Source: an uncultured Actinomycetes bacterium
GTDB taxonomy: Bacteria; Actinomycetota; Actinomycetes; Nanopelagicales; Nanopelagicaceae
NCBI GenBank assembly: GCA_903844115.1
Contig: CAIMSI010000080.1
Location: forward strand, 1-34,957
Direction of reading: 5' to 3'
Length of the DNA: 34,957 bases
How positions within the stretch are numbered: the first letter of the stretch is position 1; each line of letters starts with the position of its first letter. The position numbers were made by a program, and so were the translations under genes. Under the pieces are notes generated by a model, which saw only the letters and a list, made by a program, of their open reading frames with translations, searched no databases and was not told the origin of the DNA. This document shows positions 15,675 through 21,711 of this stretch, piece after piece.

Positions 15675-15929
15675 ATGGCTACAAAAAAGAGTGACACTCA
15701 AAATACAGACGTTCGTATCGGCATCAGCGATAGTGCGACAGACCTTCGAATTGAAACTGTATTGTCTGCAGACCAAGTTCTAGCACTTGTGCAAGATGCG
15801 CTTAAAAATGACGCACCACTTGTTATCACGGACACAAAGAACCAAAGCACATTGGTTCCAGCGAAGAAGATTGCATTTGTTGAATTTGGCAGCGCCCCTG
15901 AGCGTCGCGTCGGCTTTACAACTCTTTAA
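15675..15929 (+). CDS. DUF3107 family protein
   Basis: VRIGISDSATDLRIETVLSADQVLALVQDAL...LVPAKKIAFVEFGSAPERRVGF matches DUF3107. Confidence 0.87.
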   Translation: MATKKSDTQNTDVRIGISDSATDLRIETVLSADQVLALVQDALKNDAPLVITDTKNQSTLVPAKKIAFVEFGSAPERRVGFTTL

Positions 15930-16774
15930 AAGACTCTTACAACCCGGCGATTATCCGCGCGAGCTTCAAGTGCTTGCCACTGATCTGGTTCTGTCGTATT
16001 TTCTGCTAATTCATTAATTTTCCCTGTGCCGTGATAATCACTAGACCCCGTGCGCAGAATGCCTAAGTCTTTAACAATATCTTTCAATAAGTTTCTTTGA
16101 TCAGCTGTGTGGTCGCGGTGAAATACCTCAATCGCATCTAAACCAGCATCTACATAAGAGCTAAAACTCTCGACGCCAACCGTGCGTCCGCGAAGTGAAG
16201 CCATCGGGTGCGCAATTACTGATACGCCGCCAGCTGCTTTAATCAAAGCGATTGCGCGCTCTGGGGTTGGTGAATAATGTGCGACATAGTACGGAGAATT
16301 ATTGTGTAACCATTTTTCGAAAATCTCATCCCGGCTTTTAGCCAAACCTTTTGCAACCATAGCATCGGCTAAGTGGGGGCGTCCTAAAGTTGCCCCATCG
16401 GAAAGTTGTGCAAGAACTTCCTCCATACTAATTTCAATCCCAGCACCATTCATACGGGAAATAATCCGCTCCATACGTCCAAAGCGATTATCGCGAGTTT
16501 GGGCTAAAACATCTTGAAGTTCTTGATTCTTTGAATCAAAGAGCAAGCCCAGCATGTGCACACTAATTCCATCTTCGGTCTGGCACGATATTTCCGATCC
16601 AAGTACCAAGTCCATCCCAGGTCGTAAATGTGCACTCGCCTCCTCCCAGCCCGCAATACTGTCGTGATCGGTGAGAGCAAGAACTTTGATTCCAGATGCG
16701 AGTGCTTTGTTGATTAATTGAGCCGGAGTATCCGTGCCATCGCTAATGGTTGTGTGGGTGTGTAGGTCAATCAT
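15926..16774 (-). CDS. PHP-domain phosphoesterase (YciV/RNase AM-like)
   Basis: MIDLHTHTTISDGTDTPAQLINKALASGIKVLALTDHDSIAGW; SSDYHG. Start moved to ATG 16774 (ATGA overlap with eamA). Confidence 0.9.
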   Translation of the reverse strand: MIDLHTHTTISDGTDTPAQLINKALASGIKVLALTDHDSIAGWEEASAHLRPGMDLVLGSEISCQTEDGISVHMLGLLFDSKNQELQDVLAQTRDNRFGRMERIISRMNGAGIEISMEEVLAQLSDGATLGRPHLADAMVAKGLAKSRDEIFEKWLHNNSPYYVAHYSPTPERAIALIKAAGGVSVIAHPMASLRGRTVGVESFSSYVDAGLDAIEVFHRDHTADQRNLLKDIVKDLGILRTGSSDYHGTGKINELAENTTEPDQWQALEARADNRRVVRVF

Positions 16775-17655
16775 CGCTTTCCACCAATAACAAATACCGT
16801 GCAGCCTGCCAAAATCCCAAGCACACCTACCCACAAACCTGCTGAAGGGGATTGATGGAGCCATGCCCAGGCCACAATTGCCGCAACAGGTACTTCGAAG
16901 AAAACAATTAATGAAACAACTACTGGTGAAACCCGCTTCAAAACTATATTAAAAAGTGTGTGTCCCATAAATTGGGCTCCCAGGGTAAGCAAGCCCAACA
17001 TTATCCATTCATTGCGGTCAAAGTGAATGAATTGCAATCCACCAAAAACTATAAATGGAACAGTCACAACGGCGCACATTCCATAGCAAACCGTGGTGTA
17101 TGTAGCAGTCGCAAGATTACGTTGCACTTTGGAACCAATTCCCAAATATGTTGCTGCTAAAACCGCACATACCAAGCCAAATAAATCGCCAACGAATGCT
17201 CGAAGGGAAAGTGATAGATCCACTCCGGTTATTACAAACACAGATGCAAAAGCAATAAACATCCCTACGATGGAGGTTGTAGAAATGTGTTCACCTTTGA
17301 AACGAACATAAAGAGCAGCAAAAATCGGTTGGAGAGCAGCAAGTGCTGTACCTGCAGCAACACTTGTAAAACGCATTGCCATAAAAAATGCGAGGAAATG
17401 AAAAGCTAGGAAGAGACCAGCTAAGGCTGATTGACGAATAAGTACGCGCTTCTCCGGATTTCGTAATTCACCTGTGCGCCAGGCAAAGGGAAACATAATG
17501 AGTGAACTAATTGAATTGCGCCAAAACACCATAGTTGGAACAGGCATCACGCTCTTTGCAATAAGGGGGCCTGAAGTACCAATTCCGATTATTCCTAGAA
17601 GAAGATAGGGAATATCTCTGCCCTTTGGAAGCGCAGCATGGTCTTGTTGTTTCAT
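16771..17655 (-). CDS. EamA/DMT-family transporter
   Basis: Ten-helix hydrophobic profile; paired EamA-like repeats; start at ATG 17655 in a TGATG overlap. Confidence 0.88.
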   Translation of the reverse strand: MKQQDHAALPKGRDIPYLLLGIIGIGTSGPLIAKSVMPVPTMVFWRNSISSLIMFPFAWRTGELRNPEKRVLIRQSALAGLFLAFHFLAFFMAMRFTSVAAGTALAALQPIFAALYVRFKGEHISTTSIVGMFIAFASVFVITGVDLSLSLRAFVGDLFGLVCAVLAATYLGIGSKVQRNLATATYTTVCYGMCAVVTVPFIVFGGLQFIHFDRNEWIMLGLLTLGAQFMGHTLFNIVLKRVSPVVVSLIVFFEVPVAAIVAWAWLHQSPSAGLWVGVLGILAGCTVFVIGGKR

Positions 17656-18890
17656 CAAGGATGAACAGTAAACCAGAGCAGGGCGATCACGCAGATTGAG
17701 ACGAGAGCGATGATGATGCCGTATACAAAACGCATCCGTTGAGTTGAGGCAAATTCGCCCATCAAACGCTTATCGCGTGAAATGCCATACATAAAGAAGA
17801 GAAGCGGAAGAAGCAGAACTGCATTCAAAATCTGTGTAAGAACCAAAACTCGAATAAGCGGCACCCCTGGCAGGAGAATTAATCCAGCTGCAAGAAAAGT
17901 CATCATTCCAAAAGTGGCGTAGAAAAGTGGCGCATCTTTTGGACCATCATCCAAAGCAGCTGGTTGTCCGGTGAGATCTCCAACTGAGTATGCTGTTGAG
18001 AGCGGCAGAATTGATGCAGCAAGTAGCGCTGCCCCTACAAGACCCACTGCGAAGAGCGCTTTAGCAAGAGTTCCAGCAAGTGGCTCGAGTGCTCGGGCTG
18101 CTTGCGCGGCATCCGTGATATTTGTTTGACCTTGCTTATTTAAAGTTGCGGCGCAAGTAACGATAACGAAAAATCCAATAATTCCCGTGAGCAATGAACC
18201 AGTCCACACATCGATACGCAACAGTTTGAGGTCATCGCGCGTAAGACGCTTATCAACTGCATAGGATTGAATAAATGCCAGCCCCCATGGAGCAAGCGTC
18301 GTTCCGAGAGTTGCTGTGGCGATGTAAATAGCATCGTGGTTAAAAGGCATGGATGGAACGACAACTCCATGTAGCGCTTTACCCCAATCCGGATGTGCCA
18401 TAAATCCAGCTATTACATATGCGATGAATACAGCAGATAGCCCAAAGAAGACTTTCTCAACTCGTGCAAAAGATCCACGTAAAACTAAAAATGAAACTAT
18501 GAGTGCGGCGGCAGGAACTGTAATGAAGCGCGAATAGCCAAAGAGTTGGCCGGCGGCAGCGATACCAGCGAATTCAGCAGTCAATGTGCCGAAGTTTGCA
18601 ATTAGAAGTGCTACTGCGCTGAGGGTTCCAGAACGAGCACCATACTTTTGTCGAACTAGACCGATAAGACCCTGGCGAGTAACAACGCCAATGCGGGCGC
18701 CAAGATCTTGAAAGAGAATGAGAGCGATTGTAGAAATAACGAGCACCCACAACATTTGGTATGCAAACTTCGCACCAAGTTGGGAGTAGGTGGTGATACC
18801 GGCTGGATCGTCATCTGAAAGTCCGGCGATAACACCAGGCCCCATAACTGAAAGAAGGGCAGCGAGTCGTATCTTGCGTTGGGTCGTCAC
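17655..18890 (-). CDS. Nramp-family divalent metal transporter (atypical subgroup)
   Basis: MGPGVIAGLSDDDPAGITTYSQLGAKFAYQMLW (TM1 region) and GTTLAPWGLAFIQSYAVDKRL (TM6 region). GTG start in GTGA overlap with the MgtE_N gene. Confidence 0.88.
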   Translation of the reverse strand: MTTQRKIRLAALLSVMGPGVIAGLSDDDPAGITTYSQLGAKFAYQMLWVLVISTIALILFQDLGARIGVVTRQGLIGLVRQKYGARSGTLSAVALLIANFGTLTAEFAGIAAAGQLFGYSRFITVPAAALIVSFLVLRGSFARVEKVFFGLSAVFIAYVIAGFMAHPDWGKALHGVVVPSMPFNHDAIYIATATLGTTLAPWGLAFIQSYAVDKRLTRDDLKLLRIDVWTGSLLTGIIGFFVIVTCAATLNKQGQTNITDAAQAARALEPLAGTLAKALFAVGLVGAALLAASILPLSTAYSVGDLTGQPAALDDGPKDAPLFYATFGMMTFLAAGLILLPGVPLIRVLVLTQILNAVLLLPLLFFMYGISRDKRLMGEFASTQRMRFVYGIIIALVSICVIALLWFTVHP

Positions 18891-20230
18891 GAAAGAGCAC
18901 CCGATCCCTTAGATAGCCCATGTTGCTCTTCTGGTTTTAAGGCATCCACCAAGTCATCGGCGAGGATTCGGCCGACCGGCTTTCCTTTTTCATCAATTAC
19001 AACAATGGATGCACCACGGTTATTTGAAAATTCTTCAATCACTTCCTCGAGCGGAGAATCAATATTCACTGCAGTTGGATATGGAGGACCAATTAATTTA
19101 CTCAACAAATCACTAGATTTAGCAGCTACTAATTCAATAATTTGAATGTGATCCATCAATTTGCCCTTGGCATCGACAATAACAACACCGTCGGAAATAT
19201 CACGATCTCGGCTTTCCACTAACATTTTAAGCGCTGAACCAACTGTGTCTTCCTCGTGCGCAATGACCATATGTGTTGTCATTATTCCACCAGCAAGGGT
19301 TTCATCGAAGGAAATCAATTGGCGCAATTGCTTCGCCATTTTAGAATCCATAGCCTTCAAAATATCTTCTCGGTGTTCATCATCAAGATCACGAAGGACC
19401 TCGGCAGATTCATCTGGTTCCATACGGCTAAGAAGTTCGGCCGCGCGATCTTCTGGAAGTCCACGCAAGAGACCTTGAAGTTCTTCATCTTCCATTTCTT
19501 CCAACGCATCGGCTGCAAGTTCTGGATCCAACATTTCAATAAGCGCGCTTTGCTCGCGTCCGGCAAGATCTTCAATCAAGTCAGCAAGATCGGCAGGACG
19601 AAGCTGTGAAAGGGCTGTCTTAGAACCAGAAGTTTTTACAACTCCGGAGGTATCGGCCAGTGAGGCCACTGTCGACCAATCCAAAACGTGTTGAGGCGTA
19701 GCACGGCGTCCAAGTGCACCAGGAAAGATGCGGCGTAAAAAAGTTACAAATGATATGTCTACACCGACGACTCGAATTTCCTTATCAAGTGGAGCCAAGT
19801 AAAGATCGGATGAACGAACTACTCGCAAGCCATTTACATCAACAATTTGGTGATCAAGAACATCGCCATCTAAGAGGGATTCACCTTCACGTCGCTTGTA
19901 ATCAGTGAGATTAATGGTGGTTGATGAAAGTCGAATTTCATTGTGTGTAAGTTTGGCGATACGCGCACCGTCAATAAAGGATTTGCGCTGTCCAACTTTT
20001 ACAATCAATCCGGAAACTGGTGGATAAGCATCTTCACCGTGACGCACAACTACATCAACAAGGCGACCAATTTCTCGCCCCTCTTCATTGCGTACTGGAC
20101 ACCCAATCAGACCGGCAAGTGAAACTAAAGAATCGCGGATACTTTTTCGGGCCAGTACGCGATCAATTTTTCCCGTCACCTGTGCTGCTTTTGCCACTCT
20201 GGCGAGTGGAAGCTTTGGTGACTTTTGCAT
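18887..20230 (-). CDS. Soluble PRC-barrel + MgtE N-terminal + tandem CBS domain protein (no MgtE pore)
   Basis: LRPADLADLIEDLAGREQSALIEMLDPELAADALEEMEDEELQGLLRGLPEDRAAELLSRMEPDESAEVLRDLDDEHREDILKAMDSKMAKQLRQLISFDETLAGGIMTT (MgtE_N and start of CBS); PRC-like N-terminus; no hydrophobic helices at the C-terminus. Confidence 0.9.
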   Translation of the reverse strand: MQKSPKLPLARVAKAAQVTGKIDRVLARKSIRDSLVSLAGLIGCPVRNEEGREIGRLVDVVVRHGEDAYPPVSGLIVKVGQRKSFIDGARIAKLTHNEIRLSSTTINLTDYKRREGESLLDGDVLDHQIVDVNGLRVVRSSDLYLAPLDKEIRVVGVDISFVTFLRRIFPGALGRRATPQHVLDWSTVASLADTSGVVKTSGSKTALSQLRPADLADLIEDLAGREQSALIEMLDPELAADALEEMEDEELQGLLRGLPEDRAAELLSRMEPDESAEVLRDLDDEHREDILKAMDSKMAKQLRQLISFDETLAGGIMTTHMVIAHEEDTVGSALKMLVESRDRDISDGVVIVDAKGKLMDHIQIIELVAAKSSDLLSKLIGPPYPTAVNIDSPLEEVIEEFSNNRGASIVVIDEKGKPVGRILADDLVDALKPEEQHGLSKGSGALS

Positions 20231-20251: not shown

Positions 20252-21397
20252 TCACGTATGAAGCGAAAGGGGCACTCCAACGAGGGACTTACGTTGCTTC
20301 ATCAGTTGATCAACAATGGAATAGATGGCAAGGGATGCATGACTTTCAGGGGCTGAGAGGACGATAGGCGCACCATCATCGCCGCCCACACGAAGGGCAG
20401 GGTCAAATGGCACCGTTTCAAGAAGAGGCACATCAGCACCGACAAGAGTAGAAAGACGTTTTGCCGTTTCAGCTCCGCCACCACTTCCAAAGAGTGAAAT
20501 GGATGCACCGCAATTTGGACAATTAATATCTGACATATTCTCAACAACCCCAACAATGTGTTGTTTCAATTGATGAGCGATTCGACCAGCACGTTCTGCG
20601 ATTTCAGCAGCTGCGATTTGCGGAGTCGTTACTACCAAGATCTCAGAGCCTGGAATCAGCTGGCCTAAACTAATAGCAATATCTCCAGTGCCTGGTGGAA
20701 GATCAAGCAACAGCAAGTCAAGATCGCCCCAATATGCATCGCTGAGAAGTTGTTCTAGAACTTTATGCAAAAGAGGCCCACGATATGCCACCGGATCAGA
20801 GCGATCGGGTTTAAACATTTCCATTGAAACAACTTTGACTCCGTAACTTTCTAGCGGAATAAAAGTTTGATCAATGGCCGTTGGGCGTTGTCCAACAAGA
20901 TTCATAAGCCTTGGAATTGAATGTCCGTAAACATCGGCATCAAGAATTCCAACATTGAGTCCCCTGGTCGCCGCGGCTACTGCAAGGTTGACAGTAAGGG
21001 ATGACTTACCCACACCACCCTTGCCGGATGCAATTCCGATAACGCGTGTGAGTGAATCCGGTTGGGCAAACGGGATGACTTTTACAACTCCACCATGCAA
21101 AAGCTTTTTTACATTGTTTCGCTGCTCATCATTCATTACTCCAAATTCAAGTTCTACTTTTTTTACTTCATCGATACGAGCCAAGGCAGCTTCTACATCG
21201 TTTTTCAGGCGATCGCGCATAGGGCAACCAGAGATTGTTAGCAGGACTTTTACCTGGGCAATCCCCTCGGCAAAAAACACACTTTCAATCATTCCTAATT
21301 CTGGAAGCGGCCGACGAAGTTCTGGATCAATAACTGTCCCGAGTTCTACGTGGATACGTTCAATAATTTGATTTGTCATATTTTTCATATCTTTCAT
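20252..21397 (-). CDS. mrp: Mrp/NBP35-family P-loop ATPase with N-terminal MIP18/DUF59 domain (Fe-S carrier)
   Basis: GIASGKGGVGKSSLTVNLA Walker A, DADVYGHSIP, DLPPGTGD; CPNCG; DUF59 at N-terminus (VIDPELRRPLPELGMI). Confidence 0.95.
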   Translation of the reverse strand: MKDMKNMTNQIIERIHVELGTVIDPELRRPLPELGMIESVFFAEGIAQVKVLLTISGCPMRDRLKNDVEAALARIDEVKKVELEFGVMNDEQRNNVKKLLHGGVVKVIPFAQPDSLTRVIGIASGKGGVGKSSLTVNLAVAAATRGLNVGILDADVYGHSIPRLMNLVGQRPTAIDQTFIPLESYGVKVVSMEMFKPDRSDPVAYRGPLLHKVLEQLLSDAYWGDLDLLLLDLPPGTGDIAISLGQLIPGSEILVVTTPQIAAAEIAERAGRIAHQLKQHIVGVVENMSDINCPNCGASISLFGSGGGAETAKRLSTLVGADVPLLETVPFDPALRVGGDDGAPIVLSAPESHASLAIYSIVDQLMKQRKSLVGVPLSLHT

Positions 21398-21711
21398 AGG
21401 AGGTCAGGATCTATCTGCGCTTTCTTTTTATCGAGTGTGAGCCCTGTCGTCAATTCACTTGTTACATCATCAAAAGAGGTACCCAGAGTCTTCTTAATTA
21501 ATTTCTTTGGGTGCAAATCTGAGACTTGTAAGTCTTCAAAGCCTGGCCCAAGATTTTCTCGAAGTTCTGCTGTGGCGGTGTTAGCAATTACACGAATTCG
21601 CTTCACGAGCTTTGCAGCATCTTTAGCTACGTGCGGAAGTCGATCTGGGCCGATCAGAATAAATGCAAGGACTGTGAGAGTGAGCAGTTCTCCTGCGCCT
21701 ATGCCAAACAT
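21394..21711 (-). CDS. tatB: Sec-independent protein translocase TatB
   Basis: MFGIGAGELLTLTVLAFILIGPDRLPHVAKDAAKLVKRIR: N-terminal helix and GPDRLP motif. ATGA overlap with mrp. Confidence 0.9.
   Translation of the reverse strand: MFGIGAGELLTLTVLAFILIGPDRLPHVAKDAAKLVKRIRVIANTATAELRENLGPGFEDLQVSDLHPKKLIKKTLGTSFDDVTSELTTGLTLDKKKAQIDPDLL

Follow-up and report, generated by a model that had tools for sequence, protein, structure and literature searches.

A contig of 34,957 nucleotides from an uncultured Actinomycetes bacterium of the family Nanopelagicaceae (CAIMSI010000080.1, assembly GCA_903844115.1; this whole stretch is called the window here) carries two overlapping genes, S and N, that probably form a co-translated Mg2+ uptake unit. 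N would be the carrier, belonging to the Nramp-related Mg2+ transporters (NRMTs), and S a detached sensor made of the N and CBS domains of MgtE; we give this reading a probability of roughly 0.6. Judged by sequence, the pair is a new member of the published pairing of NrmT genes with MgtE fragments (Shin et al., 2014; PMC4072509). What is new with respect to that pairing is the exchange of the cassette with another one in which the membrane partner of S is a DUF1003 protein. The S-N pair would be a natural experiment in which the sensor of a channel has been split from its pore and reused on an unrelated carrier fold.

An NRMT carrier and a pore-less MgtE protein

N matches the Nramp profile PF01566 with 277.7 bits (E 2e-82). 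Its best solved relative is EleNRMT from Eggerthella lenta (7qia, E 2.5e-88; PMC8806188), the next one being found at 1e-23, and the MntH structures match far more weakly, in the 1e-20 range; for the MntH model NF001923 N scores 133 with a cut-off of 430. NRMTs are defined by DxxG in transmembrane segment (TM) 1 together with TxxA/T in TM6, as opposed to the DxxN and AxxM of the Mn/Fe transporters (PMC8806188). The initial annotation had quoted SDDDPAGITTYS as the TM1 of N and GTTLAPWGLAF as its TM6, and both were found. It had also pointed out that there is no MPH in TM6, which is correct and can be refined, given that N carries DxxG-TxxA, the signature by which NRMTs are defined. The soft Met ligand is absent from the metal site. 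EleNRMT and N share the metal-site signature, the TM3 Glu and the TM10 Gln, and have both lost the proton-pathway His, with W202 of N standing at the first His position and a non-His residue at the second one in the alignment to EleNRMT. They differ in TM1 (DAGG in EleNRMT, DPAG in N), and while the EleNRMT study (PMC8806188) included no MgtE-like partner, N has S adjoining. The assignment of N to the Nramp-related Mg2+ transporters, made before from the motifs, is thus backed by the closest solved relative and the binding-site signature; membership in the group is supported by sequence, and N is most likely a proton-uncoupled Mg2+ carrier. A canonical Mn/Fe Nramp identity was considered and is ruled out by the site motif and the best relative.

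S matches MgtE_N with 82 bits (E 5e-23) and CBS with 45 bits (E 1e-11). The profile search found no match in S to the MgtE pore (PF01769), the score for TIGR00400 was 87.7 against a cut-off of 232.75, and no window of 19 residues reaches TM hydropathy, all of which bears out the previous description of S as MgtE N and CBS domains without a pore. The closest solved relatives in sequence searches are the cytosolic domains of MgtE (2yvy, E 4e-19), and the AlphaFold2 model of S (pLDDT 82) aligns with 2yvy in Foldseek with an E of 1.9e-18 over 235 columns, an rmsd of 2.7 and a TM-score on the target of 0.82. S has in addition a PRC-like region that is absent from MgtE; its match is just below the cut-off (19.7 versus 21.2 bits), relatives of S exceed the cut-off, and the region is beta-rich in the predicted model.

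We have mapped the site residues of the Thermus thermophilus protein (TtMgtE; 2yvx/2yvy/2zy9) onto S through a HMMER alignment, with 32 aligned S proteins. In TtMgtE these are D91/D247 for Mg4, D226/D250 for Mg5, D95 for Mg6, E59 for Mg7, E258 for Mg2 and D259 for Mg3 (PMC5882242), and the ATP-contact residues include R187 and F227 (PMC5529423). Both Mg4 residues are conserved in S (Table 1). The Mg6 position is E277 and the Mg7 position D241, both being Asp or Glu in 32/32 of the aligned proteins. The plug-helix sites are replaced (E258 by H437 in Mg2, D259 by G438 in Mg3), and so are the ATP-site residues (R187 by I365, F227 by G406). This pattern indicates that the Mg2+-sensing interface between the N and CBS domains has been preserved and the parts that join it to the pore have not. 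In other words, MgtE and S are alike in the MgtE_N and CBS fold and in the acidic residues of Mg4, Mg6 and Mg7, whereas the pore, the plug helix, the Mg2 and Mg3 plug sites and the ATP-site residues are found only in MgtE. The retained residues, the MgtE-like fold of the predicted model and the co-inheritance with NRMTs support the reading of S as a sensor.

That co-inheritance comes from a census of 198 genomes of the phylum, in which the denominators are the matches listed (most, not all, of the weak ones included). Among the matches listed, an Nramp gene is the neighbor of 38 of the 80 MgtE_N genes without a pore, on the same strand in 37 cases, versus 0 of the 59 full MgtE genes (Fisher p = 8e-12, uncorrected for shared descent). 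This is the neighborhood tally that had been proposed in the initial annotation, and the adjacency is not confined to the genome of the window; chance adjacency of S and N is rejected by it. Every Nanopelagicales locus with room keeps S and N adjacent, also when the surrounding genes are others than mrp, eamA and PHP. The 85 Nramps adjacent to S, many of which come from close Nanopelagicales relatives, have the DxxG-TxxA/T signature in 83 cases and GxxG in two, the canonical DxxN-AxxM being found in none, and the 60 non-adjacent ones comprise 17 canonical, 10 NRMT-like and 13 TxxS proteins, the remainder being of other types. Within the NRMT clade, six S proteins are "orphans" (L144-147, L153 and L154); their genomes have an Nramp elsewhere, and the unlinked Nramp of four orphan-S genomes (L199, L200, L202 and L203) has the NRMT signature.

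On the minus strand, the stop codon of S ends at 18887 and N begins with GTG at 18890. The two open reading frames (S with 447 aa) and the GTGA stop/start overlap described previously were all recovered at 17655-20230 and 18887-18890, respectively. A 4-base overlap between the two genes was found in 31 of 57 Nanopelagicales loci, and translational coupling is likely.

An M-box Mg2+ riboswitch precedes 9 of the 34 S/NRMT cassettes of the phylum, and none (0/40) of the S-DUF1003 loci. A side observation concerns three loci of family f24 (L111, L118 and L124), where the order is reversed, i.e., M-box, NRMT and then S. The assembly to which the window belongs (98% complete, 144 contigs) gave no match for the MgtE pore, CorA or MgtA; a second, canonical Nramp was not found in it either, and two CNNM genes are present. 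N may be the main Mg2+ importer of this genome but, given the presence of CNNM/CorC-type proteins, not necessarily the only Mg2+ route. A pair of this kind hints at how Mg2+ could be taken up by streamlined freshwater actinobacteria that lack MgtE and in many cases also CorA.

Exchange of S-NRMT and S-DUF1003 cassettes

We have found that the place of the NRMT is taken by another membrane protein in many relatives. In 20/20 of the Nanopelagicaceae S loci without NRMT examined, a DUF1003 protein with two TMs (PF06210, E 2e-36) stands in its position. The slot is shared, with the order TatA/B-Mrp, S-DUF1003, EamA-PHP in these genomes and TatA/B-Mrp, S-NRMT, EamA-PHP in the window. Across the phylum the S-DUF1003 pair was found in 20 of the 26 non-NRMT loci examined. 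Over 101 genomes of the family, DUF1003 is above the cut-off in 52, S-NRMT is present in 39, both in 0 and neither in 10 (G207, G220, G225 and G237 are examples of the latter); the exclusion has a Fisher p of 6e-19, inflated by shared descent. It is not universal, since G094, outside Nanopelagicaceae, carries both cassettes (L126 and L129). CorA was rejected as the exchange partner, being present in 11/39 of the S-NRMT genomes versus 20/52 of those with DUF1003. No previous description of such an exchange came up in the open-licence literature, to which the search was limited.

Both types of cassette in the Actinomycetota consist of a pore-less MgtE_N/CBS gene directly upstream of a membrane-protein gene in the same mrp-linked slot, and they differ in the partner, a PF06210 protein with two TMs in one of them, and in S itself, with an identity of only about 26%. 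In the S tree (94 rows) all 39 DUF1003-linked proteins fall on one branch with an SH-aLRT of 100, and the S of the window clusters with NRMT-linked S proteins of other families and not with those linked to DUF1003 in Nanopelagicaceae. Clustering by partner and not by family indicates that sensor and partner have been exchanged together. A tree of the Mrp and PHP flanks, from which g148 was left out, needs three changes between cassette types, the direction of each not being set by the tree.

The complete genomes G296 and G260 provide a further case. Their S-NRMT cassette is located away from mrp, with an S that is 87-88% identical to that of the window; mrp and eamA are adjacent and have neither S nor DUF1003 between them (in L259 the two matches end 18 bp apart), and no DUF1003 was found anywhere in these genomes. 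The sister genome G247 retains S-DUF1003 between mrp and eamA. An empty slot would be expected if one functional unit had taken over from another. With the slot empty and S-NRMT elsewhere, linkage to one slot as the sole cause of the exclusivity is weakened.

Mutual exclusion, together with the shared or emptied mrp/eamA slot, makes DUF1003 a candidate Mg2+ membrane partner, possibly a transporter, by analogy with the NRMT. The model of the DUF1003 protein (pLDDT 77) had no match in PDB at E<=10 and the profile search gave only chance-level matches to lactococcin immunity proteins, so we make no claim of a CorA-like nature. The exchange is a first functional lead for this conserved membrane family of actinobacteria, about which almost nothing has been published (it is mentioned in 2 out of 5.4 million papers), and points to a role in magnesium homeostasis. 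A broader proposal, which we consider tentative and doubtful as a whole, is that detached MgtE sensors serve interchangeable partners, that DUF1003 is itself a channel or transporter for Mg2+ with a dedicated S as its gate, and that there have been at least three displacements in Nanopelagicaceae in either direction, including the two emptied slots.

A possible feedback valve and its alternatives

We infer Mg2+ transport by N, Mg2+ binding by S, contact between the two proteins and an inhibitory effect of S. N would carry Mg2+ into the cell as an NRMT, most likely without proton coupling. When cytosolic Mg2+ rises, it would occupy the interface sites between the N and CBS domains of S, and the Mg2+-filled protein would compact as MgtE does. 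The compacted S would most likely dock on the inner face of N and damp uptake, acting as a feedback valve. The idea is not a new inference. Shin et al. (2014) found a gene for the MgtE cytosolic domain beside the majority of NrmT genes; they also mentioned control by the M-box, speculated that there is feedback regulation from the cytoplasm, and raised a metal-chaperone role (PMC4072509). Those pairs and S-N are alike in having a gene for an Nramp-related carrier with an adjoining co-directional gene for an MgtE cytosolic domain; S-N differs in the PRC-like region, in the mrp/eamA operon without M-box and in belonging to a lineage in which it takes the place of S-DUF1003. The reading put forward in the initial annotation is in part supported, through the NRMT identity of N and the sensor residues, fold and co-inheritance of S, and gating in trans would be a plausible but hypothetical part of it.

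Several observations weigh against a Mg2+ valve of this kind. Among published work we found one test of a pair, that of A. capsulatum, in which Mg2+ transport was rescued only at low millimolar Mg2+, Mn2+ uptake was fully restored, the carrier acted mainly as a Mn2+ transporter, and co-expression of the MgtE fragment gave no better rescue and had no visible effect (PMC4072509). The Mg5 site is only half kept in S, with D429 present and Arg (R405) at the D226 position. A dedicated riboswitch was looked for at the locus and the Rfam search of the window revealed no M-box or other element. CNNM/CorC-type proteins are present in 14/14 of the genomes checked. No natural S-N fusion was seen; a same-frame candidate in G014 was rejected because a stop codon separates the two genes.

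Part of this evidence would fit N transporting chiefly Mn2+ or a broad range of divalent metals, with S sensing Mn2+ or total divalent metal instead of Mg2+. EleNRMT transports Mn2+ too (Km ~120 uM; PMC8806188), and besides the behavior of the A. capsulatum relative, the lack of an M-box in the window and of a second canonical Nramp in the genome would agree with it. We nevertheless regard it as rather unlikely, considering that nine sister cassettes follow Mg2+ riboswitches, that the metal site of N has no soft Met ligand, that the genome has neither CorA, MgtE pore nor MgtA, and that S keeps the acidic residues of Mg4, Mg6 and Mg7. S could also act not as a direct gate of N but in another process, as an adaptor, chaperone or regulator that depends on Mg2+ and has to be co-expressed with transporters. 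The membrane proteins next to S-type proteins are of two unrelated kinds (NRMT and DUF1003), six loci have S beside neither (with an S11 peptidase as neighbor in the five that were read), the PRC-like region has no counterpart in MgtE, and a chaperone role was already raised in 2014 (PMC4072509). But the S tree splits strictly by partner (39 DUF1003-linked proteins, support 100), as expected if S fits its partner, and this explanation seems to us improbable. Finally, S and N could be functionally unconnected neighbors in one operon. All genes from TatA/B-like to PHP are on a single strand with tiny gaps, so that position alone in the window proves little; still, the linkage persists over many families and through the change of all other neighbors, and full MgtEs never adjoin Nramp (0/59 among the matches listed), by which the census effectively refutes mere hitchhiking, a very remote prospect to us.

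Gene layout and other Nramp-like proteins

The features of the locus are listed in Table 1. The slot is bounded by the mrp/apbC-like and EamA-family genes, and the latter shares 4 bases with the end of N.

Table 1. Coordinates of the S-N locus in the window, with the evidence for each feature
Feature	Coordinates	Strand	Basis
TatA/B-like gene, outer left flank	21394..21711	-	profile and locus comparison
mrp/apbC-like P-loop ATPase, left flank of exchange slot	20252..21397	-	profiles and locus comparison
S, soluble sensor-like protein, 447 aa, PRC-like, MgtE_N and CBS pair, without pore	18887..20230	-	ORF calls, domain profiles, model
PRC-barrel-like region of S, ~residues 35-101	19928..20128	-	sub-cut-off profile match; homologues; model
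MgtE_N domain of S, residues 210-310	19301..19603	-	PF03448
D273 of S = TtMgtE D91 (Mg4)	19412..19414	-	alignment; invariant 32/32
CBS pair of S, ~residues 313-432	18935..19294	-	second CBS by PF00571; both by 2yvx/2yvy alignment and model
D426 of S = TtMgtE D247 (Mg4)	18953..18955	-	alignment; invariant 32/32
GTGA 4-base overlap, S stop and N GTG start	18887..18890	-	sequence reading
N, putative Nramp-related Mg2+ transporter (NRMT), 411 aa	17655..18890	-	profile, closest solved relative, site motifs
TM1 metal-site motif of N, D28-P-A-G31 (DxxG of NRMTs)	18798..18809	-	motif reading; signature in PMC8806188
TM6 metal-site motif of N, T197-T-L-A200-P-W202 (TxxA of NRMTs; AxxM-P-H in canonical Nramps)	18285..18302	-	motif reading
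TM10 Q353 of N = EleNRMT Gln379	17832..17834	-	alignment to EleNRMT
EamA-family permease, right flank of exchange slot	16771..17658	-	profile and locus comparison
PHP-domain phosphoesterase-like gene, outer right flank	15926..16864	-	profiles and locus comparison

Some other arrangements were detected. Long S proteins of the NRMT clade (~600-665 aa; L144, L145, L147, L153 and L154) adjoin a gene for a D-Ala-D-Ala carboxypeptidase (S11), with the Nramp elsewhere. A separate Nramp-like group has a DPSG or DPGG/TTISPY (TxxS) site, lacks the TM10 Gln and is not located beside S; its members are L218-L221, L223 and L224 in Nanopelagicaceae, and L208, L212, L213 and L215. Further PF01566 proteins diverge at the metal site, with GPGT/TTVVPY or TTIVPY in some and GAGD or GAAD/GVGG in others (L195-L197, L204-L206, L210; L217, L229-L232).

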